Below, in pieces: positions 19,163-37,289 of a stretch of DNA of 39,423 bases. The stretch is taken from the NCBI GenBank assembly GCA_016179875.1, contig JACPCH010000216.1:1-39423 (forward strand). Direction: 5' to 3'. The translations under genes were made by a program, and so were the position numbers. The notes under the pieces are model-generated. The model saw only the letters and a list, made by a program, of their open reading frames with translations, did not search any database and was not told the DNA's origin. This DNA is from Candidatus Rokuibacteriota bacterium. GTDB lineage: Bacteria > Methylomirabilota > Methylomirabilia > Rokubacteriales > CSP1-6. Positions within the stretch are counted from its first letter, which is position 1; each line of letters opens with the position of its first letter.

Positions 19163-21022
19163 ATGATCGACGTCAAGACCGCGGACCGGGAGCTGCAGAC
19201 CTACATCCGGCCGCAGACCTTTCCGGTCGCCGTCCGGATGCTCAAGCCCGACGAGCCGATCCCCGACAAGGCCCGGCGGCCGGCGCGGGACTTCAAGAAG
19301 CTCAGCATGAACTGCCAGGTCATCGACATGGCCCGGCGCTACGGCTGGATGATCGCCCTCACCCGCGAGGACCACATCTGCTCGCTCGGCATCGCGGCGC
19401 TCGGCTTCGAGCGGCCCAACCATCTGCTGAACTCGGGCACGCTCTGCGAGGGCATGTACACCGAGACGAAGACGGCGGGCGAGCGCTCGGAGGCCGCGGT
19501 GGACCGCTTCGCCCCCGGCGAGTACCACGCGCTCCTGGTGGCGCCGCTCGACCGCGCGCCGTTCGAGCCGCACTTCGTCTGCATCTACGCCAACCCCGCC
19601 CAGGTGATGCGCCTGACGCAGGCGGCGCTCTGGAAGCGGGGCGGCAAGCTCACCTCCTCGTTCGGCGGCCGCATCGACTGCTCCGAGATCATCGTGACCA
19701 CGATGCGCACCGACGAGCCGCAGGTGATCCTGCCCTGCTCGGGCGATCGCATCTTCGGCCAGACCCAGGACCACGAGATGGCGTTCACGATCCCCTGGTC
19801 GAAGATGGAGGAGATCGTCGAGGGCCTCAGGGGCACCCACGCCGGCGGCATCCGCTACCCGATCACCCAGTTCATGGAGTACGAGGCCAAGCTGCCGCCG
19901 CGGTACATGGAGGCCAACCGCGCCTGGGACGTGGAGCACGGCAAGGCCGAGTACACGAACCGCGACCGGGTCGTGGCCGCCTACAAGCGCTCGTTCGCCG
20001 ACCGCGTGCCCGTGTACCCGATCGTCGCCTCGTTCGCGGGCACGCTCGACGGCCTCTCCATCGAGGAGTACTGCACGAACATCCCGAAGGCGATCACGGC
20101 GATGCTGAACTACTACGAGAGGTACCAACCGGACGTCGTGCTGGCCTACAACGACCTGGCGAAGGAGGCCGAGGCCTTCGGCTGCCGCGTGAAGTACTCG
20201 GATTACGTCGTGCCGTCGATCGACGCGCACGTGCTCCACGACGACAAGAAGAAGCTCGCCGGGCTCGCGATGCCCGATCCCTACCGGACGGCGCGCCTGC
20301 CCGGGTTCCTCGAGCAGTGCGAGGCGCTCGTCAAGGCCAAGCCCCCGGCGGCGATCGGCGCCGTCGCGGTCGGCCCCTGGACGATCGCGATGCTGCTCCG
20401 GAACCCGGAGACGATGCTCCTCGACACCTTCGAGGACCCGCAGTTCATCCACGACGTCATGCGGGTCGCCACGGACTTCTGCAAGCTCTGGGGCGACGCG
20501 ATCGTCAAGACGGGCATCGGGCTCTCGTTCTCCGAGCCGACCGCGTCCATCAGCCTGATCTCGCCCGACAACTACAAGACCTTCATCGCCCCCTATCACA
20601 AGGAGCTGGTCGATTACTTCAAGGCCAAGAGGGTCGGCGTCACCACGCACATCTGCGGCACGACGTATCCCATCTTCGAGGATCTGATCGCCTGCGGCTT
20701 CACGACCATCTCCTTCGACCTCGACCAGCAGGCGGACCCGAAGCTCCACGTGGACCAGCTCCGGCGATTCGTGGAGGTGGCCCGGGGGCGGGCGGTCGCG
20801 ATCGGCAACGTGGACGCGACGAAGTTCGAGAAGACGGCGAAGGCGGCGATGTACGCCGACGTCAAGCGATGCGTGGACACGGCCGCGCGCCAGTCGGGCT
20901 TCATCCTGTCCACGTCGTGCGAGATCCCGCCGCGCTCGGAGCCCGAGATCGTCAAGTGGTTCATGGACGCGGCGCACGAGTACGGCCGCTACGAACGCAT
21001 CTTTTCCTCGGAGGGGGCCTGA
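19163..21022 (+). CDS. DUF169 domain fused to an MtaA/URO-D-type methyltransferase
   Basis: A 619-residue two-domain protein; the ATG has GGAGG seven nt upstream. Residues about 5-240 are a DUF169 domain, whose function is unknown: TFPVAVRML, the Cys-containing HICSLGIAALGFERP and a CSGDRIFG segment. Residues about 265-615 belong to the uroporphyrinogen decarboxylase superfamily. The usual Arg-rich porphyrin site of HemE is not evident. Instead there is the zinc pattern of MtaA-type methylcobamide methyltransferases: His496-Ile-Cys498 (THICGTT) and a late Cys586 (STSCEIPP). That suggests a Zn-dependent methyl transfer to or from a thiol or corrinoid, not heme synthesis (inference). The window holds a corrinoid protein and homocysteine methyltransferases 11-13 kb away. 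The gene stands alone and is followed by hairpins. A tight-binding cofactor role for DUF169 is only a guess. Confidence 0.8.
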   Translation: MIDVKTADRELQTYIRPQTFPVAVRMLKPDEPIPDKARRPARDFKKLSMNCQVIDMARRYGWMIALTREDHICSLGIAALGFERPNHLLNSGTLCEGMYTETKTAGERSEAAVDRFAPGEYHALLVAPLDRAPFEPHFVCIYANPAQVMRLTQAALWKRGGKLTSSFGGRIDCSEIIVTTMRTDEPQVILPCSGDRIFGQTQDHEMAFTIPWSKMEEIVEGLRGTHAGGIRYPITQFMEYEAKLPPRYMEANRAWDVEHGKAEYTNRDRVVAAYKRSFADRVPVYPIVASFAGTLDGLSIEEYCTNIPKAITAMLNYYERYQPDVVLAYNDLAKEAEAFGCRVKYSDYVVPSIDAHVLHDDKKKLAGLAMPDPYRTARLPGFLEQCEALVKAKPPAAIGAVAVGPWTIAMLLRNPETMLLDTFEDPQFIHDVMRVATDFCKLWGDAIVKTGIGLSFSEPTASISLISPDNYKTFIAPYHKELVDYFKAKRVGVTTHICGTTYPIFEDLIACGFTTISFDLDQQADPKLHVDQLRRFVEVARGRAVAIGNVDATKFEKTAKAAMYADVKRCVDTAARQSGFILSTSCEIPPRSEPEIVKWFMDAAHEYGRYERIFSSEGA

Positions 21023-28414: not shown

Positions 28415-29722
28415 CTAGAGGGCCGGCGCGGCGGCGAAGCCGAGCACGTCCTCGCACCAGCGGGCGGTGGCGAGGAGCCGCGCGTCCGCATCGGCCGCCT
28501 GGACGAGCTGGATCGCGAGCGGGAGCCCCGACGCGGCCACGCCGCTCGGCAGCGAGACCGACGGGACGCCGGCGAAGCTCCAGGGGGCGCAGTTCCAGGC
28601 GTCGCCCGTCCAGCCGAGGCCGGCCGGGGCGGGCGCGGGCGCCGAGGGCGAGAGCAGGGCGTCGTAGGCCGCGAGCAGCGGCAGCACGTCCTCGCGGAAG
28701 GCCAGGCGCGCGCGATGGGCCCGGACGTAGGCCGTGCCGGACACCGCGAGCCCGGTCTCGGCGAGCCCCTTGATCTCGGGATGGTAGTCGGCCGCGTGCG
28801 CGGCGAGCAGCGGCTCGTGATAGGTCGCGGCCTCCACCTCGAGCACGGTCTGGCCCGCGGCGTGGATCGCGCGGAAGGACGGCGGGAGCTTGACCTCGAC
28901 CACGCTCGCCCCGGCCCGCGCGAAGGCCGCGGCGCAGGCCTCGAGGTGGGCCGCCACCTCGGGCGTGGCGCGCTCGAGCAGCTCGCGGGCGAGGGCCAGA
29001 CGCGGCGCGGGCGGCGGCGCGGCCACGAGCGCGCGCCCGGCCAGCACGCTCATCACCAGCGCGGCGTCGGCGACGCCGCGCGTGAAGACGCCGACGTGAT
29101 CGAGCGACCAGGCGAGCGGCACCACGCCCGCGGCCGGCACCAGGCCGTGCGTGCCCTTGAACCCGACGGCGCCGCAGTAGGCGGCGGGCCGGAGGACCGA
29201 GCCGACCGTCTGCGAGCCGAGGGCCAGCGGCACCATGCGCGCCGCCACGGCCGCAGCCGAGCCCGAGGACGAGCCGCCCGGCGTGTGGGCCGCGTTCCAG
29301 GGGTTCGTGGTGGGTGCCGGGTCGCGGTACGCGAACGTCGTCGTGTGGGTCTTGCCGAGCACGATCGCGCCGGCGGCGCGCAGCCGGGCCACCGACGCCG
29401 CGTCCTCCTTCGGCCGGCGGTGGGCGAACGCCCGGGCGCCGGCCGTCGTCGGCAGGCCCGCCGCGTCGAAGATGTCCTTCACGCCGAACGGCACGCCGTG
29501 GAGCGGTCCGCGCACGCGGCCGCTCGCCGCTTCGTCCGCCCGCTCGCGCGCGGCCGCGCGGGCGCCCGCCTCGTCCACGTGGATCCACGCCTGGAGCCGG
29601 CCGTCGAGGGCGCGGATCCGCTCCAGGCAGGCGTCCACCAGCGCGACCGGGTCGAGCGCGCCGGCGCGGATCCGCTCCGCCGCCTCCTCGACACCGAGCG
29701 CCGCCGGATCAGTGGAGGGCAT
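28415..29722 (-). CDS. amidase signature family hydrolase
   Basis: A 435-residue amidase using a Ser-cisSer-Lys triad. The Lys is in LHGVPFGVKDIFD (residue about 81), the cis-Ser in TPGGSSSGSAAAVAA (about 150) and the nucleophile Ser in GSQTVGSVLRPAAYCG (about 174). The canonical nucleophile block has the form GxDTGGS, so Gln and Val here are departures, though the Ser itself is kept. It may be an amidase with altered specificity; this group also contains GatA-like and aryl-acylamidase enzymes, but no GatB/C neighbours exist here. The ATG overlaps the MTHFR fusion gene's 3' end by 14 nt. It is followed directly by the D-aminoacylase gene. Confidence 0.9.
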   Translation of the reverse strand: MPSTDPAALGVEEAAERIRAGALDPVALVDACLERIRALDGRLQAWIHVDEAGARAAARERADEAASGRVRGPLHGVPFGVKDIFDAAGLPTTAGARAFAHRRPKEDAASVARLRAAGAIVLGKTHTTTFAYRDPAPTTNPWNAAHTPGGSSSGSAAAVAARMVPLALGSQTVGSVLRPAAYCGAVGFKGTHGLVPAAGVVPLAWSLDHVGVFTRGVADAALVMSVLAGRALVAAPPPAPRLALARELLERATPEVAAHLEACAAAFARAGASVVEVKLPPSFRAIHAAGQTVLEVEAATYHEPLLAAHAADYHPEIKGLAETGLAVSGTAYVRAHRARLAFREDVLPLLAAYDALLSPSAPAPAPAGLGWTGDAWNCAPWSFAGVPSVSLPSGVAASGLPLAIQLVQAADADARLLATARWCEDVLGFAAAPAL

Positions 29723-31559
29723 CGAGCACTTCCGCCACGACCTCGAACCGCCCGAACGACGGCATCAGGTAGGCGCCCCCGTAGCGCCCGCGCACCGCGT
29801 GCACCAGCTCCTGCGCCATCTCGATCCCGACGCGCAGCGCGCCGTCGCCCGCCTCGCGCAGGCGCCGGCGCACGGGCTCCGGGATGCTGATGCCCGGGAC
29901 CTCGTTGTGGAGGAACTCGGCGTGGCGGACGCTGTGGAGCGGCAGGACGCCGACCACCACCGGCACCGGCGAGCCGCCGGCGCGCTCGAGGAACCGGTCG
30001 AGCGCCGCGAGATCGTACACGGGCTGGGTCTGCACCCAGCGGGCGCCGGCCTGCACCTTCCGGTGGAGCCGCTCGGCCTCGCGCGCGGCGTCCTCCGCCG
30101 CCGGGTTGAGCGCCGCGCCCACGCAGAAGGCCGTCGGCTCGCCGATCGACGAGCCGGTGGCGTCGAGCCCCTCGTTCATCCGGCGGAGAATCTCGATGAG
30201 GCCGATGCCGTCCACGTCGAACACCGCCGTCGCGTCCGCGTAGTCGCCCGCGCGCGGCGGGTCCCCCGTCATGGCCAGGATGTTGCGGATGTCGAGCGCG
30301 TGGGCGCCCAGGAGGTCCGCCTGGATGCCCATCAGGTTCCGGTCGCGGCAGGTGAAGTGCATGTTGACGTCGAGCCCGGTCGCCTCCCGCACCAGCAGCG
30401 CCGTCGGCAGCACGGCCATGCGCACGCGGCCCAGCGAGCCGTCGTTGATGTCCACGATCTCGACGCCGCGCTCCTTGAGGAGCTTCGCGCCCTGCACCAG
30501 CTTCTCGACGGTGTGACCGCGCGGCGGGTCGAGCTCGACGGTGACGAGGAACTCCCGCGCCTCGAGCTTCCGCTGCAGCGGCGTGGGCGGCCGCCGCAGG
30601 TGCAGGCCGGGCGCCTCGCTCGCGGCGGGCGCGCTCACGGTGATCGCGGGGCGCGCGGCCACGCGCGCGGGTGGGCGCCGCCGGTCGAGCACCTCGCGCA
30701 TCGCCGCGATGTGCTGGGGCGTGGTGCCGCAGCAGCCGCCGACCAGGCGCGCGCCGGCGTCCACCATCCGCCCGGCGTACTCGGCCATGTAGGCCGGCGA
30801 CGAGAGGTAGATCAGGCGCTCGCCGATGCGGCTCGGCAGGCCCGCGTTCGGCTGGATCGCGATCGGCAGGCCGCCGGCCGCCGGCACCATCTGCTCCAGG
30901 ACCTCGTAGAGCGTGCTCGAGCCGACCGAGCAGTTCGCACCCAGCGCCGCGACGCCGAGGCGCGACAGGGTGAGGGCGACCTCGGCGGGCGACCGGCCGG
31001 TGAAGGTCACGCCCTCGTTGGTGAACGCCATCTGCGCCACGATGGGCAGGTCGGTCACGCCCCGGATCGCCTCGATGGCGAGCGCGATCTCCGCGAGGTC
31101 GGAGAACGTCTCGGCGATGAAGGCGTCCACGCCGCCCTCGAGCAGCGCCTCGGCCTGCTCGCGGAACGCGGCGCGCCCCTCGTCGGCCGTCACGGTGCCG
31201 AGCGGCGCCAGGTACTTGCCGAGCGGGCCCATGGAGCCCAGCACCAGCACGTCGCGCCCGGCGCTCTCGCGGACGTCGCGGGCGAGCCGGACGCCGCACC
31301 GGTTGATCTCGCGGACCTGCCCCTCGAGTCCGTGCACCGCGAGCTTGAACCGGTTGGCGCCGAAGGTGTTGGTCTCGATGCAGTCCGCGCCGGCGGCGAT
31401 GTAGTCGGCGTGGACCGCCTGGACGAGCCGCGGGTTGTTCAGGTTCAGGACGTCGAAGCACGCGTCGAGCGAGACCCCGCGCGCGTAGAGCAGCGTGCCG
31501 GTCGCGCCGTCGCCGAGAAGCGGCCCGGCCTCGAGGCGCCGGCTAAACGCGTGCGGCAT
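29709..31559 (-). CDS. homocysteine S-methyltransferase/MTHFR bifunctional protein
   Basis: A 616-residue fusion. Residues about 1-300 are an S-methyltransferase domain with all three zinc Cys: Cys210 (GANCSVG) and Cys276-Cys277 (GGCCGTTP). Residues about 335-616 are a methylenetetrahydrofolate reductase-like domain. It contains FLVTVELDPPRG, the FAD-binding segment around HFTCRDRNLMGIQ and ILAMTGDPPRAGDY, and GARWVQTQPVYDL. The same fusion occurs in many bacteria (YitJ-like): it would reduce methylene-THF to methyl-THF and methylate homocysteine or another thiol. The ATG at 31559 overlaps the shikimate kinase 3' end by 17 nt. The gene belongs to the overlapping run that also carries a second homocysteine methyltransferase, a corrinoid protein and its reactivator. 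Confidence 0.9.
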   Translation of the reverse strand: MPHAFSRRLEAGPLLGDGATGTLLYARGVSLDACFDVLNLNNPRLVQAVHADYIAAGADCIETNTFGANRFKLAVHGLEGQVREINRCGVRLARDVRESAGRDVLVLGSMGPLGKYLAPLGTVTADEGRAAFREQAEALLEGGVDAFIAETFSDLAEIALAIEAIRGVTDLPIVAQMAFTNEGVTFTGRSPAEVALTLSRLGVAALGANCSVGSSTLYEVLEQMVPAAGGLPIAIQPNAGLPSRIGERLIYLSSPAYMAEYAGRMVDAGARLVGGCCGTTPQHIAAMREVLDRRRPPARVAARPAITVSAPAASEAPGLHLRRPPTPLQRKLEAREFLVTVELDPPRGHTVEKLVQGAKLLKERGVEIVDINDGSLGRVRMAVLPTALLVREATGLDVNMHFTCRDRNLMGIQADLLGAHALDIRNILAMTGDPPRAGDYADATAVFDVDGIGLIEILRRMNEGLDATGSSIGEPTAFCVGAALNPAAEDAAREAERLHRKVQAGARWVQTQPVYDLAALDRFLERAGGSPVPVVVGVLPLHSVRHAEFLHNEVPGISIPEPVRRRLREAGDGALRVGIEMAQELVHAVRGRYGGAYLMPSFGRFEVVAEVLDALH

Positions 31560-32073
31560 GCGCCCCCCGGAGCGCCCGGAGCACGCGCGCGACGATCTGA
31601 TCCGTCCCGAGGCCGGCGGTGTCCACCGTGACGTGGGCCCGGGCGTAGAACGGCTCGCGCGCGCGGTAGAGGGCCTCGACCTCCGCGGGCGGGCGCGCGA
31701 GCATGGGCCGGTCGCCGGCGCGGCCCGCGCGCGCGACCAGCTCGTCGAGCGGGCCGCGGAGCCACACGACGGTGCCGAGCATGCGCAGCGTCTCCATCCG
31801 GCCCTCGCGGCAGGGCAGCCCGCCACCCGTCGCGATCACGTCGCCGGACTTCAGGCGGAGCGCCTCGACCGCCTCGCCCTCGAGCTCGCGGAAGCGCGCC
31901 TCGCCGTGCCGGCGGAAGAGCTCCGGGATCGGGCAGCCCTCGCGCGCCGTGATCATGTCGTCGGTCTCGACGAAGCAGCGGCCGAGGCGCCGGGCGAGCA
32001 GGCGCCCGACCGTCGACTTTCCGGCGCCCATGAAGCCGATCAAAATCACGTTGTGGCCCGGCATCTCCCGCAT
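31543..32073 (-). CDS. aroK: shikimate kinase
   Basis: A 176-residue enzyme phosphorylating shikimate in aromatic amino-acid synthesis. The Walker A loop GFMGAGKST is at about residues 13-21. The shikimate-binding DD motif (VETDDMI) and its partner RHGEARFRELE are present, as is GGGLPCREG. The lid Arg is in GDRPML. Either ATG 32073 or the ATG three codons later may be the start. The first lies 4 nt past the reactivation gene's stop; ribosome-site evidence does not separate them. No other shikimate-pathway genes are here, so it appears to have been picked up into a one-carbon operon. Confidence 0.92.
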   Translation of the reverse strand: MREMPGHNVILIGFMGAGKSTVGRLLARRLGRCFVETDDMITAREGCPIPELFRRHGEARFRELEGEAVEALRLKSGDVIATGGGLPCREGRMETLRMLGTVVWLRGPLDELVARAGRAGDRPMLARPPAEVEALYRAREPFYARAHVTVDTAGLGTDQIVARVLRALRGAHAARV

Positions 32074-32077
32074 CGTA

Positions 32078-32803
32078 TCACCGATGCACCGTCCGGGCGG
32101 CGGGCGCCCGGCGGTAGGCGCAGGCCGGCATCCAGCAGCGCGCGCACTGGCTGAAGTAGTTGTCCACGCGGGCCTCGCGGCCGGCGCCGGCGAGGAGCGA
32201 GATGGACTTCACCGGCGCCATGAAGCACGCGGCGTTGAGGGTGACGCCGACGGCGTCGCCGGGGCAGAGCCGGAAGAGCTCGCGCTGCTGGGTGACGTCC
32301 CAGCCGGCGTAGCCGGGGCTGATGCGGTTCGTCACCCTGAGCCCATGGGCCAGCCCCTCCTGGCAGAGCGCGTCGTTGACGTACTCGGCGAGACTCTCGA
32401 CGGCGCCCGAGCCGACGCTGTCGAGCATCATCGCCAGCGGCAGCTCGCGCGCCGCCCACAGCTCGGCGACCCGGCGCTCGAGCGCGTCGCCGATCGTGCA
32501 GACGCCGGCCACGACGTGCTCGACCGCCCCCCAGCTCTCGCCGATCGTCGGGATCGCCAGGGCGACGCCGCCGGCCGCGAGCGTGTCGCGGTCCCCGCGG
32601 GCGACGGGAGCCCAGCGGACGACGGCGCGCGGCGCCATGAGGCGGCGGCCGAGGGCGAGCGCCTCGTCGAAGAGCGCGCGGACCGCCGCGTCCGGCACGT
32701 CGCGTCCCTTCTGATAGCCCTGGAAGCGCAGAGCCTCGTCGGGGTCGATCTCGAGGGCGATGTCGGTGAGCACGCGGGGGGTGGCGGGGAACGGCGCGGT
32801 CAC
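32078..32803 (-). CDS. corrinoid reactivation protein (MetH activation-domain family)
   Basis: A 241-residue stand-alone homologue of the AdoMet-binding activation domain of cobalamin-dependent methionine synthase. The GTG start at 32803 overlaps the homocysteine methyltransferase stop (GTGA). Recognisable blocks are DEALRFQGYQKGRDVPD near the N-terminus, CTIGDALERRVAEL, the AdoMet-site-like RISPGYAGWDVTQQRELF and GVTLNAACFMAPVKSISLL. In full-length MetH this domain reductively remethylates inactive cob(II)alamin with AdoMet. The C-terminus carries a Cys cluster CxxCx4C (QCARCWMPACAYRR), a pattern I know from stand-alone versions in anaerobes, possibly a metal or Fe-S site (inference). The gene sits directly beside the corrinoid protein, so its target is clear by context. 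Confidence 0.82.
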   Translation of the reverse strand: MTAPFPATPRVLTDIALEIDPDEALRFQGYQKGRDVPDAAVRALFDEALALGRRLMAPRAVVRWAPVARGDRDTLAAGGVALAIPTIGESWGAVEHVVAGVCTIGDALERRVAELWAARELPLAMMLDSVGSGAVESLAEYVNDALCQEGLAHGLRVTNRISPGYAGWDVTQQRELFRLCPGDAVGVTLNAACFMAPVKSISLLAGAGREARVDNYFSQCARCWMPACAYRRAPAARTVHR

Positions 32804-33714
32804 TTCTTGCGGCTTCGCACGACCTCGGCGATGAGTCGGATGTGCTCGGGGTTCGAGCCGCAGCAGGCGCCCACGACGTTGCACCCGGCGTCGAGGAGCG
32901 CGGGGTACTCGCGCGCCATCGCCTCGGGGCCGAGCTCGTAGGTGACGGTGTCGCCGGTGGTGACCGGCAGGCCCGCGTTCGGGTAGGCGACCAGCGGCGC
33001 GTCGGTGACCCGGCGCATCTCGCGGATGATCACGATGGCCCGGTCGGGCCCGCGGCCGCAGTTCATCCCCACGATGTCGGCGCCGGCGGCGAGGAGGCTC
33101 TTGGCGACGTCGGCGGGGCTCTCGCCCCACATGGTGCGGTCGCGGTCGTGGATCTCCTCGTACTGGAAGAACATCGTCGCCATCACCGGGAGGTCCACGA
33201 CCTTCTTGCACGCGCGGATCGCGGCCGTCGCCTCCTGGGGGAACATCATGGTCTCGACCGCGAAGAGATCCACGCCGCCCTCGGCGAGCGCCTCGGCCTG
33301 CTCGCGGAAGGTCGTCTCGTATTCCTCGTCGGTGACGCCCGCGTCCAGCGCGTAGTCCTGCGGCAGGCGGCTGGTCGGGCCGATCGAGCCCGCGACGAAG
33401 CCTCCGGACGGGGCGGCGGCGCGCGCCAGCCGCGCGCCCTGCGCGTTCAGCTCGCGCGTCCGGTCGCCGATCCGGTACTCGTCGAGCTTGAGCCGCGTGC
33501 CGCCAAAGGTGTTGGTCTCCACGATCTGGCTGCCGGCGTCGACGTAGGCCCGGTGGATCCCCCGCACGACGTCGGCGTGGGTGTCGTTCCAGAGCTCCGG
33601 GCAGGCGCCGTTCAGGAGGCCGGCCGCGAAGAGCATGGTGCCGTAGCCGCCGTCGAAGACGAGCGTCTCGCCACTCCGGAGGCGCTCGACGACCTCCCAG
33701 CCGCGCGCCTTCAC
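32800..33714 (-). CDS. homocysteine S-methyltransferase domain protein (MetH N-terminal type)
   Basis: A 304-residue stand-alone S-methyltransferase. It resembles the homocysteine module of MetH. The zinc Cys are Cys219 (GMNCGRGP) and Cys284-Cys285 (GACCGSNP). The beginning LVFDGGYGTMLFAAGL and ETNTFGGTRLKL are family hallmarks. Its ATG overlaps the corrinoid protein's stop (ATGA), and its stop overlaps the reactivation gene's GTG start, so the three are coupled. It should take the methyl group from the neighbouring corrinoid protein, with homocysteine as the likely acceptor. Other thiol acceptors cannot be excluded, since corrinoid-linked members of this family can differ in substrate. It is a distant paralogue of the methyltransferase half of the 29709-31559 fusion. 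Confidence 0.85.
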   Translation of the reverse strand: MKARGWEVVERLRSGETLVFDGGYGTMLFAAGLLNGACPELWNDTHADVVRGIHRAYVDAGSQIVETNTFGGTRLKLDEYRIGDRTRELNAQGARLARAAAPSGGFVAGSIGPTSRLPQDYALDAGVTDEEYETTFREQAEALAEGGVDLFAVETMMFPQEATAAIRACKKVVDLPVMATMFFQYEEIHDRDRTMWGESPADVAKSLLAAGADIVGMNCGRGPDRAIVIIREMRRVTDAPLVAYPNAGLPVTTGDTVTYELGPEAMAREYPALLDAGCNVVGACCGSNPEHIRLIAEVVRSRKK

Positions 33715-34388
33715 GCCCGCGCCGCCTCCGCCCGCCCGCCGCGGAGCGCCTTGGCCTTGAGGACCGCGAGCGTGGCGTCCCGGGCGTAGCCGTCGGCGCC
33801 GATCTCGTCGGCGAACGCCTGGCTGACGGGCGCGCCGCCCACCATGACCTTCACCCGCTCGCGCAGCCCCGCCTTGACCAGCGCGTCGATGGTGCGCTTC
33901 ATGCCCGGCATGGTGGTGGTCATGAGGGCGGAGATGCCGACGATGTCGGCGCCGTGCTCCTCGACCGCCTTCACGAACACCTCGGGCGCCACGTCGCGGC
34001 CGAGGTTATGGACCTTGAAGCCCGCGCCCTCCAGCATCATGCCGACCAGGTTCTTCCCGATGTCGTGCAGGTCGCCCTGCGCGGTGCCGATCACCACCAC
34101 GCCGAGGTTGTCGTCGGGGCGCGCGCCCGCCGTGATGAGGGGCTTGAGCAGATCCAGGCCCGCGTACATGGCGCGCGCGGAGAGGAGCACCTGGGGCACG
34201 TAGTACTCGTTGCGGCGGAACTTCTCACCCACCACGTCCATGCCCGGGATGAGCCCCTTGAAGATCAGCGCCTTCGGGTCCATCGCCAGGTCGAGGCCTT
34301 CCCGGGTCTTGCGCGCGACCGTGTCCTTGTCGCCCACGATCAGGGCGCGCGCCATCGCCGGATAGTCGAAGCCGTCGTCACCGCTCAT
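33711..34388 (-). CDS. corrinoid (B12)-binding methyl carrier protein
   Basis: A 225-residue methyl carrier of the MtaC/MtbC/MetH B12-domain family. The N-terminal helical cap (about 1-88) contains IPGMDVVGEKFRRNEYYVPQV. The Rossmann-like B12 domain follows, with the cobalt-ligand motif Asp106-Leu-His108-Asp-Ile-Gly111 (GDLHDIGKN), then VGISALMTTT and VGGAPV. All residues needed for base-off, His-on binding are there. The ATG has GGGGGAGG upstream. It is the first gene of a nine-gene overlapping run and is directly coupled to a homocysteine methyltransferase and a reactivation protein. No folate-binding or substrate-specific methyltransferase (MtaB-, MtbB- or MtgB-type) gene is adjacent, so its methyl source is open. 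Confidence 0.93.
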   Translation of the reverse strand: MSGDDGFDYPAMARALIVGDKDTVARKTREGLDLAMDPKALIFKGLIPGMDVVGEKFRRNEYYVPQVLLSARAMYAGLDLLKPLITAGARPDDNLGVVVIGTAQGDLHDIGKNLVGMMLEGAGFKVHNLGRDVAPEVFVKAVEEHGADIVGISALMTTTMPGMKRTIDALVKAGLRERVKVMVGGAPVSQAFADEIGADGYARDATLAVLKAKALRGGRAEAARA

Positions 34389-34449: not shown

Positions 34450-36495
34450 TCAGCGCGGCGGCCGCTCGGCGGGCTCGGGGAGGGCCGGGACGCCGTCGCC
34501 CGACGCGAACGACACGCCAGCCGCGTCGCCGCTGCGCCAGACGACCGTGCCCTCGACCTCGATGGGCGTCGGCAGGGCGCCGCCCTCGCACTGGATCCGG
34601 AGGCGGGTGCCGACGCCCAGCTCCGCGGGCACGCCGGTGAGCGAGATGCCGTTCTTGGCGATGTCCCGCGTCCGCACCGGCACGACCTCGCGGGCGCCGA
34701 CGACGGTCACCGTCGCGGCGGCGCCGAGCGCGACGCGCGGGTGCTTGCGGAGGTTCGCGGGCAGCACGCCCCAGATCCGGACGGTCTCGGCCCGGCCCTT
34801 CACCGCCACCGCGCCGAGCTCGTAGGTCGGGAACTGGCCGCGGACGCGCTCGTGGGTGGACTCGCTGATGATGATGGACGCGCCGTACTCCTTGGTGAGG
34901 GCCTCGAGGTGCGCCGCGATGTTCACCACGTCGCCGATCGCCGTGTACTCGAGCCGCTGGCGCGAGCCCATGGTGCCGACGATCGCCTCGCCCGTGTTGA
35001 TCCCGACGCCGTTGCGGATGGTCACGCCGAGCTTGGCCTCCCAGCGGGCCGAGACCTCGAGCGTGCGCTCCTGCAGCTTGAGCCCGGTGCGCACGGCGTT
35101 GGCGGCGTGGTCGGGGTCGTCGATCGGGGCGTTGTAGAGCGCCATCACGCAGTCGCCGATGTACTTGTCCACCGTGCCGCCGTACTCGAAGACGACCTCG
35201 GTCATCTCCGACAGGTACTCGCGCAGCATCTCGACCACCTGCTCGGGCGCGACGCGCTCGGCGAGCGCGGTGAAGCCGCGGATGTCGGAGAACAGCACGG
35301 TGACGAGCCGGCGGCTCGACCCGAGGCTCACGTCGCCCCGCTGCCGCACGATCTCGGTGAGGACGGCGGGCGAGAAGAACTGGCCGAGCCGCCGCCGCTC
35401 GCGCTGCTCGCGGACGAAGTTGCCGACGACCGCCGCGCCGTAGCCGAGCAGGAGCGCGAGCGTGACGGCCGCGAACCGGAACCACGCGCCCCACACGCTG
35501 AAGGCGAGGAACGTCACCGCCGCCAGCGCCGCCCACAGCCCGGCGCTCGCCGCCAGCGCGCGGAGCGCGCGCAGGCGCACCACGAGCCAGGCGCCCGCGA
35601 TCGCGGCCGCCAGCGCGACGGCCGTCGAGAGCCAGCGCGGCGCCTCTCGCACCGCGAGGCCGCCCAGGAGGGTCTCGAGGGCATTGGCATGGATCTCGAC
35701 GCCCGGCATCGTCCGCGCGCGCGCGAAGGGCGTCGAGTAGACGTCCTGGAGGATCGCGCTCGTGGGGCCGACGAGCACGATCTTGCCCTGGAACGTCTCG
35801 GGCGGGACCTCCCCCTGCACCACGCGGTGGTACGGGATCCACGGGAAGGTCTTGGGGCCGCCGCGATAGTTGATCAGGAACTCGCCGGGCGGCGGCAGCT
35901 CGGCGGCCGGCAGCCCGGCGGCCCGGGCGAGCCGGTAGAGCGCGAGGTCGAACGACGGGATCAGCTCCTCGCTGTGCCGGCGCTGGAGGGGCACCCGGCG
36001 GAGGGTGCCGTCGGCGTCCACGGTGACGCTGACGGTCCCGATCGCCGCCGCCCCACGCCGGATCACCGGCAGCGGCGGGTTCAGGTCCACCTTCGTGTAG
36101 AAGGACTCCGACACCTCCGTGATCGCCGAGGCCAGGACGATGTTGCCCGCGCGCGCGACGGAGCCGCCGAGGGTCTCGTCGTCGGCCCGCCCGCGCGGCG
36201 ACGGCTCGGAGAACAGCACGTCGAAACCGATCGTGATGGGGCGCCCGGCGTTGATGGTCTCGACGAGGTTCGCGTGCAGCGCCCGCGGGAACGGCCACGG
36301 CAAATCGAGCTCGTCGAACGAGTCCTCGTCGATCGTCACGATGACGATCGGGAAGACCGGCGGGCGGGCCCCCCGCAGCTCGAAGAGCCAGTTGAGCAGG
36401 CCGAGCTCGCCCGTCTCCAGGGCGCCCGCGAAAACGAGCGCGGCGGTGAGGAGGCCGGCGGCGATGCCCATGATGAGCGTCCTGACGGCGGTCAT
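34450..36495 (-). CDS. CHASE2-class III nucleotide cyclase-PilZ protein
   Basis: A 681-residue membrane protein. The ATG at 36495 is preferred; a GTG just before it is the alternative. After an N-terminal helix comes a periplasmic CHASE2 sensor domain (about 35-290: IVIVTIDEDSFDELDLPWPF, TIGFDVLFSE). Three membrane helices (about 295-370) and a class III cyclase domain (about 400-575) follow. Cyclase hallmarks are LFSDIRGFT (first metal Asp), VDKYIGDCVMAL (adenine-selecting Lys, second metal Asp) and YTAIGDVVNIAAHLE. In that last block residue 529 is His where the transition-state Arg normally stands (codon CAC), four residues after the conserved Asn. A PilZ domain (about 585-675) ends it, with RKHPR and DIAKNG resembling the c-di-GMP motifs RxxxR and D/NxSxxG. 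It diverges from a cyclic-nucleotide phosphodiesterase. Confidence 0.85.
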   Translation of the reverse strand: MTAVRTLIMGIAAGLLTAALVFAGALETGELGLLNWLFELRGARPPVFPIVIVTIDEDSFDELDLPWPFPRALHANLVETINAGRPITIGFDVLFSEPSPRGRADDETLGGSVARAGNIVLASAITEVSESFYTKVDLNPPLPVIRRGAAAIGTVSVTVDADGTLRRVPLQRRHSEELIPSFDLALYRLARAAGLPAAELPPPGEFLINYRGGPKTFPWIPYHRVVQGEVPPETFQGKIVLVGPTSAILQDVYSTPFARARTMPGVEIHANALETLLGGLAVREAPRWLSTAVALAAAIAGAWLVVRLRALRALAASAGLWAALAAVTFLAFSVWGAWFRFAAVTLALLLGYGAAVVGNFVREQRERRRLGQFFSPAVLTEIVRQRGDVSLGSSRRLVTVLFSDIRGFTALAERVAPEQVVEMLREYLSEMTEVVFEYGGTVDKYIGDCVMALYNAPIDDPDHAANAVRTGLKLQERTLEVSARWEAKLGVTIRNGVGINTGEAIVGTMGSRQRLEYTAIGDVVNIAAHLEALTKEYGASIIISESTHERVRGQFPTYELGAVAVKGRAETVRIWGVLPANLRKHPRVALGAAATVTVVGAREVVPVRTRDIAKNGISLTGVPAELGVGTRLRIQCEGGALPTPIEVEGTVVWRSGDAAGVSFASGDGVPALPEPAERPPR

Positions 36496-36527
36496 CACCT
36501 GACAATGTATGCTAGTATCGCGCCTTA

Positions 36528-37289
36528 ATGAAAATCCGCGTGCTCGGCGCCTTCGGGGGCGAAGGACTCGGGCATCGCCCCTCCGCGTTCCTCGTCAACG
36601 ACCGTCTGCTGATCGACGGAGGCTCCGTGACCGGCGCCCTCACCGTGCCCGAGCAGCTGCGGATCGAGCACGCGCTCCTGTCGCACGCCCACCTCGACCA
36701 CCTCGCCGGGCTCGTGTACCTCAGCGAGACCCTCGGCTTCTGCGAGACCGGGGCGGCGGTGACCATCGCCGGCATCGACCCGGTCATCACGGCACTCCGG
36801 TCCAACGTCTTCAACAACGTCCTGTGGCCCGACTTCAGCAAGATTCCCCACGCCGACGTGCCGGTGGTGAAGTACCGCACGCTGGTCGAGGACGTCGAGC
36901 AGCGCGTCGGCGACGTCTGGGTGACGCCGGTGCCGGTGAATCACACCGTGCCGACCACCGGGTTCATCGTGCACGACGGCGCGACCGGGCTGATGTACTC
37001 CGGCGACACCGGGCCGACCAAGGCGCTCTGGGACGCGGCCCGCGGCCTCACCGGCATCCGCGCGGTGATCCTCGAGTGCGCGTTCCCGAACCGCCTGGCC
37101 CCGCTGGCCGAGATCGCCAAGCACATGACCCCCGACCTGATTCGCCACGAGCTCGACAAGCTCCCGCCGAACGTCCCGGTGTGGATCTTCCACATCAAGC
37201 CGCAGTTCGCGGAGGAGATCGCCGAGGAGCTCGGCCGCCTCGCCGACCGCGTCGTCTTCCTCGAGCAGGACCGCACCTACTCGATCTAG
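36528..37289 (+). CDS. class II 3',5'-cyclic-nucleotide phosphodiesterase, MBL fold
   Basis: A 253-residue metallo-beta-lactamase-fold protein of the class II phosphodiesterase type (yeast PDE1, Vibrio CpdP), expected to hydrolyse cAMP or cGMP. The metal-binding motif is His53-Ala-His55-Leu-Asp57-His58 (SHAHLDHLAGL); later ligands are in PVNHTVPTTGF and YSGDTGPT. The closing segment ILECAFPN and WIFHIKPQF are also family features. No signal peptide is visible, so it is cytoplasmic, which suits a second-messenger role. The start is 32 bp from the divergent cyclase start, and the short space contains A+T-rich stretches, so promoters overlap. General MBL hydrolases are the alternative, but the whole sequence matches the phosphodiesterase group better. 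Confidence 0.82.
   Translation: MKIRVLGAFGGEGLGHRPSAFLVNDRLLIDGGSVTGALTVPEQLRIEHALLSHAHLDHLAGLVYLSETLGFCETGAAVTIAGIDPVITALRSNVFNNVLWPDFSKIPHADVPVVKYRTLVEDVEQRVGDVWVTPVPVNHTVPTTGFIVHDGATGLMYSGDTGPTKALWDAARGLTGIRAVILECAFPNRLAPLAEIAKHMTPDLIRHELDKLPPNVPVWIFHIKPQFAEEIAEELGRLADRVVFLEQDRTYSI

Follow-up and report, generated by a model that had tools for sequence, protein, structure and literature searches.

Three adjoining genes in a Candidatus Rokuibacteriota genome, encoding a corrinoid (B12) carrier, a homocysteine S-methyltransferase (HMT) domain protein and a stand-alone MetH-type reactivation protein (activator), may provide the carrier, acceptor and repair parts of folate-independent, B12-dependent methionine formation. 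The window, referring to the whole stretch of 39,423 nucleotides analysed here, also encodes a DUF169-URO-D fusion as a candidate for the enzyme that would load the carrier. The resulting route, from a methyl donor via the URO-D enzyme and the carrier to homocysteine, is put at slightly better than even.

The carrier (33711..34388, minus strand, 225 aa) is MtbC/MtgC-like and matches PF02607 (78.6 bits) and PF02310 (106.6 bits) in Pfam, with a TIGR02370 score of 213.6 bits lying slightly below the cut-off of 215.3, and its cobalt-ligand motif DxHDIGKN is kept in 32/32 loci. The HMT domain protein (32800..33714, minus strand, 304 aa, GTG start) matches PF02574 with 244.7 bits, contains no PF01717 domain and keeps the zinc cysteine motifs NCG and CCG in 30/32 and 32/32 loci, respectively. 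The activator (32078..32803, minus strand, 241 aa, GTG start) scored only 24.9 bits against PF02965, for which the cut-off is 25, and its identity was settled by the AlphaFold2 model (pLDDT 88) because this score is borderline. Foldseek returned 1j6r as the best PDB match (TM-score 0.83 by target length), which is TM0269, a stand-alone activation domain from Thermotoga, and the remaining significant matches were all MetH activation domains, so the third protein of the trio is predicted to have the MetH activation-domain fold. The three separate genes named in a preliminary description of this DNA were all recovered at 32078-34388 by Pfam and the predicted fold. The junctions of the trio, given there as one ATGA and one GTGA, were both found to be GTGA overlaps, with ATGA absent between the trio genes. 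A start codon that produces this 4-base overlap was found at the carrier/HMT junction in 21/30 loci and at the HMT/activator junction in 15/30, and this recurrence across the loci of relatives indicates that the overlaps are not due to chance.

The C-terminal CX2CX4C motif of the activator is encoded at 32146-32120 on the minus strand. In a 23-row alignment including a Zixiibacteriota protein, C220, C223 and C228 were invariant and C147 nearly so. The motif is present in an activator-like protein of Gemmatirosa as well and absent from the short activation paralogues of a second cluster described below. As a guess, it could hold a metal or Fe-S centre.

Past the trio, the gene run continues, according to Pfam, with a shikimate kinase gene (31543..32073, minus strand, PF01202 140.3 bits), a conserved neighbour (aroK) that adjoins the trio in most family members, and then a YitJ-like HMT-MTHFR fusion (29709..31560, minus strand, PF02574 and PF02219), which scored 702.9 bits with NF006396 (cut-off 453). 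Methyl-THF is the expected product of this fusion and is not required by the proposed model. On the other side, a CHASE2-adenylate cyclase-PilZ protein (34450-36498, minus strand) and a class II cAMP-phosphodiesterase-like protein (36528-37289, plus strand) flank the trio in many relatives, which suggests cAMP signalling nearby. A search for riboswitch clues gave no Rfam match in the window.

Close relatives of the trio were found in Candidatus Rokubacteria, which are soil and groundwater bacteria, and in other Methylomirabilota. In total, 58 of 95 Methylomirabilota genomes searched encode the activator, with the carrier and HMT genes adjacent to it in almost all loci read; as far as visible, these genomes are MAGs or fragmented assemblies, and absences from them are soft. 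With its gene adjacency and overlaps recurring across these genomes, the trio is an old conserved unit and belongs to the core features of both Rokubacteria and certain other Methylomirabilota. The median identity across the family was 87% for the carrier, 86% for the DUF169-URO-D fusion and 83% for the HMT protein, compared with 56-81% for the other proteins of the block, so that these three evolve more slowly than any other protein of the block. Two genomes (G002, L196 4400-4425; G032, L193 5403-6549) keep the carrier, HMT and DUF169-URO-D genes with no activator gene at the usual place. A contig binned as Acidobacteria (L173) bears a trio of the Rokubacteria type (carrier 87%, HMT 88%) and is probably misbinned. 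No relatives of the trio HMT were found in a viral collection.

The trio had been taken for a split MetH system lacking its folate-binding module. The PF00809 search confirmed that the window holds no pterin-binding module, and PF00809 was missing from the whole assembly as well, which means little because this assembly, at 77% completeness, does not even include folP. Genomes of the same genus and family usually carry two PF00809 genes, one in a folP-sized frame and the other in a frame of at least 1000 residues. Three of the long frames were read, and all three encode full-length MetH with the activation domain included. In the genome itself, contig C210 begins with 234 bases that encode MetH residues 1-78, a fragment truncated by the contig end and 83% identical to the MetH of a same-genus relative. 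Seven trio genomes without MetH (G009, G017, G019, G022, G023, G025 and G030) have a strong PF01717 gene instead. In G023 (L102 1462-3455) this is a split MetE of two genes of ~330 aa with a 4-base overlap, matching Meth_synt_2 and Meth_synt_1; equivalents occur in the other six genomes, and the distribution of split MetE is complementary to that of MetH. The trio normally coexists, therefore, with another methionine synthase, either MetH or split MetE. Besides these, Rokubacteria genomes contain 2 to 22 PF01717 matches each, mostly core-MetE-like frames of ~350 aa with ~90-150 bits (contigs C79, C178, C166 and C53 of the genome itself).

In the HMT tree, the trio clade is separate from the MetH of the same lineage and from the MtgE-like and HMT-MTHFR proteins, with the deeper branches weakly supported. 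On account of the separate HMT clades and the MetH still present, an origin of the trio by splitting of the MetH of this lineage was rejected, and the split MetH reading was given up. As to the two findings that the preliminary description had held decisive, most relatives do possess MetH, and a pterin gene always paired with the trio was not found among them. PF00809 in relatives was only folP-like, part of full-length MetH or located in the second cluster of a few genomes, and a hidden pterin gene was rejected as trio partner on this ground. The second cluster (L090 8001-20000 and L091 9460-18800, in G007 and G014) comprises a short activation paralogue, an MTHFR with DUF5981, a diverged pterin protein, a PF02574 protein, an URO-D protein, a carrier and RACo, and appears to form a complete system for corrinoid/folate demethylation. 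The suggestion that the missing pterin module points to a non-folate methyl source has held up as the better reading, because the trio is not accompanied by a pterin module and MtrH is absent from relatives.

Pterin-less runs of the same kind were found in other phyla. On a Zixiibacteriota contig (MAG), MttB, activator, carrier and HMT genes overlap in a single run that contains no pterin gene. Elsewhere, the MAG has a folP-like gene along with a MetH-like fragment. Gemmatirosa kalamazoonensis likewise encodes an URO-D protein, a carrier, RACo, an activator-like protein and an HMT in a single run without a pterin gene, the URO-D protein having no HxC motif. These runs show that a donor-type methyltransferase, a carrier, a PF02574 enzyme and an activator recur as a group in which a folate module is missing.

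Several candidates for the donor side were rejected. MttB-type enzymes (PF06253) are absent from the genome itself and from 59/60 relatives, which speaks against them as donor enzymes in this lineage and leaves the methylated amines previously proposed as donors, via MttB/MtgB, unsupported. MtrH-type enzymes were found in none of the relatives searched, and an MtrH-type MTII was rejected as trio partner. The genes sometimes inserted between the activator and aroK encode, as far as tested, an AI-2E transporter, an epoxide hydrolase and a CoA transferase, none of them a methyltransferase, and SAM as the net methyl donor via the activator would bring no net methionine gain.

A search for URO-D proteins revealed, besides HemE, a second URO-D type on the contig of the trio in genome after genome. 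In the window it is encoded at 19163..21022 (plus strand, 619 aa, PF02596 195.5 bits, PF01208 190.6 bits) as an MtaA/CmuA-like DUF169-URO-D fusion. The preliminary description had implied that the window holds no other methyltransferase, overlooking both this fusion (19163-21022) and the HMT-MTHFR gene (31560-29709). The URO-D half scored 129.3 bits with TIGR01463 (mtaA_cmuA), below the cut-off of 235.4, and 34 bits with HemE, and on these scores the protein is most similar to MtaA/CmuA-type corrinoid methyltransferases, closer than to HemE. The HxCG...C motif is kept in 24-25 of 26 copies. Its best-ranked annotated plasmid match belongs to a run of carrier, URO-D and ASKHA reactivator genes in Thiodictyon. 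The AlphaFold model, obtained from a 6-row alignment (pLDDT 36), was too poor for use, and among the titles and abstracts listed from the open-access literature none gave a DUF169 function. Most family genomes also have DUF169 genes that stand alone at other locations. A methoxy or similar donor, another of the earlier proposals, is compatible with an UroD-type enzyme.

The distribution of the fusion follows that of the trio. Both the activator and the DUF169-URO-D gene were found in 56 of the 95 genomes, the activator only in 2 (G053 and G086), the URO-D gene only in 8 and neither in 29, so that DUF169-URO-D is present in 56/58 genomes with the trio activator and 8/37 others. At least 5 of the 8 URO-D-only genomes (G002, G013, G014, G032 and G036) keep a carrier-sized gene without the activator of the trio. 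The fusion and the trio lie on one contig in 38/56 genomes, with a median distance of 11.8 kb. In the window, 11 kb separates them and they are on opposite strands; a two-component system and an amidohydrolase lie in between, and the two could be linked just as members of an old synteny block. A first rival holds that the trio acts as proposed with some other, unlinked enzyme as donor methyltransferase, DUF169-URO-D being an old neighbour with a function of its own. Other block genes are conserved with it. A malic enzyme gene beside DUF169-URO-D is also highly conserved (only 4 full copies measured), and most family members possess elsewhere an URO-D-only paralogue of ~370 aa with 60-67% identity to the URO-D half. 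Against this rival, the pair stays linked where the block is lost: in family f7, DUF169-URO-D is ~4 kb from the trio and the other genes of the block that were tested were all missing, and in family f3 it lies within ~1 kb, with little or nothing left of the block around it. Co-occurrence also persists outside the main family (both 8, activator only 1, URO-D only 2, neither 27; Fisher p = 8e-6, uncorrected for relatedness), and the shared slow evolution and the same pairing within the one Gemmatirosa run point in the same direction. The unlinked donor enzyme is thus considered unlikely, though it is the best placed of the rivals, and DUF169-URO-D, a strong candidate, is likely the missing donor enzyme of the trio.

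In the proposed mechanism, the URO-D enzyme would pass a methyl group from a methylated donor compound to the carrier, and the PF02574 protein would transfer it from the methyl-Co(III) carrier to zinc-bound homocysteine to give methionine. The PF02965-type protein would restore carrier that has slipped to Co(II), likened here to the MetH activation domain, which uses SAM. The pathway might serve as a methyl-salvage shortcut alongside MetH or MetE. The direction of transfer, homocysteine as acceptor and the donor role of the URO-D protein are all drawn from the protein families. Counting for the mechanism are the conserved trio with its intact zinc and cobalt ligands and without pterin, MtrH or MttB partner, as well as the co-occurrence, linkage and shared slow evolution of the URO-D gene and the independent pterin-less runs; the parts, motifs and predicted activator fold, together with the co-occurrence, linkage and co-conservation of the four genes, were read directly from sequence. 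Counting against it, MetH or MetE is present in most trio genomes, which leaves the need for further methionine formation not obvious, and the URO-D score is well below the MtaA/CmuA cut-off while two activator-bearing genomes have no DUF169-URO-D gene.

Alternatively, the trio could be a variant methionine synthase fed by methyl-THF, its carrier being loaded by the pterin domain of MetH or by an unrecognised folate enzyme. MetH is available in most relatives, an HMT-MTHFR fusion lies in the gene run of the trio, and a homologous carrier in Ruegeria is loaded by the separate pterin protein MtgD (PMC12478193). However, the trio persists in the seven split-MetE genomes, in which PF00809 was found in a folP-sized frame only or not at all and MtrH is missing, which makes feeding by methyl-THF improbable. 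Reverse flow, by which the PF02574 protein would load the carrier by demethylating an S-methyl compound and the URO-D protein would pass the methyl group to a thiol acceptor, is considered no better. MtaA/MtbA-type UroD enzymes do act on the acceptor side and their typical HxCG...C motif is kept here, but the PF02574 proteins of MetH, Bhmt and MtgE act on homocysteine at the acceptor side, and the Zixiibacteriota partner belongs to MttB, a donor-side family, yet the same HMT type is present. That the trio is the only methionine synthase of the cell, with MetH/MetE dispensable or absent in some lineages, is very improbable: G026 (94% complete) lacks MetH- or MetE-type matches beyond weak PF01717 hits and G047 (96%) lacks PF01717 and has a single, folP-like PF00809, but both are MAGs, other contigs of G047 carry additional PF02574 fragments, and MetH or split MetE is found in most trio genomes.

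Extended to several phyla, the proposed route could be modular, with the carrier/PF02574/PF02965-type core plugged onto varied donor methyltransferases (DUF169-URO-D in Rokubacteria, URO-D in Gemmatirosa and MttB-type in Zixiibacteriota) and the methyl groups of environmental compounds entering methionine and SAM directly; this extension is tentative and falls somewhat short of even. If true, methyl groups of soil and groundwater compounds would reach methionine bypassing tetrahydrofolate, a MetH-type homocysteine enzyme would do what is known of MetE-type core synthases, and a first role would be proposed for a core gene set of Rokubacteria and for the DUF169-URO-D fusion. Such trios should not be annotated as 'split MetH'.

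Compared with known systems, the trio shares its homocysteine, B12 and activation modules with full-length MetH, from which it differs in having separate genes, lacking a pterin module and coexisting with full MetH in the lineage. A stand-alone activation protein of the same fold also occurs in two-part MetH, as in Thermotoga (TM0268/TM0269) and Peptoclostridium acidaminophilum. The other protein of the Thermotoga pair retains the pterin module, unlike the trio, and so, judging from its length, does that of P. acidaminophilum.

In Phaeobacter and Ruegeria, the MtgC carrier and MtgE HMT serve methionine synthesis, MtgC also taking part in glycine betaine demethylation, within a system that includes the pterin protein MtgD and the MttB-type MtgB (PMC5764234, PMC12478193). 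The trio resembles MtgBCDE in its separate carrier and HMT genes and in a carrier that would be loaded by a donor-specific methyltransferase, whereas its locus has a PF02965-type activator instead of RamA/DUF1638 and lacks MtgD and MttB-type MtgB. Both domain types are present, but the HMT and carrier fall into clades separate from those of the Mtg proteins and score below the family cut-offs, the HMT 204 with NF005718 (cut-off 338) and the carrier 203 with the MtgC models (cut-offs 310/370).

The UroD-type systems (MtvB, OdmB, VdmB, MtoB, CdmB and CmuA) likewise combine an UroD-family enzyme with a corrinoid carrier and an activator, and the bacterial ones, such as CdmBCA, pass methyl groups to tetrahydrofolate via a separate MTII, their activating enzyme being ATP-dependent (PMC13222342). 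Here, in contrast, homocysteine is the apparent acceptor, and the UroD domain forms a fusion with DUF169 that is genomically associated with a corrinoid carrier, a pairing also seen in Gemmatirosa and Thiodictyon. No description of this gene combination was found in the open-access literature. The MesA-MesD core methionine synthases form methionine without methyl-folate, with MesA-C probably taking methyl groups from corrinoid proteins (PMC7857596), and are distinct from the trio enzyme in being MetE-type (PF01717) rather than MetH-type (PF02574).
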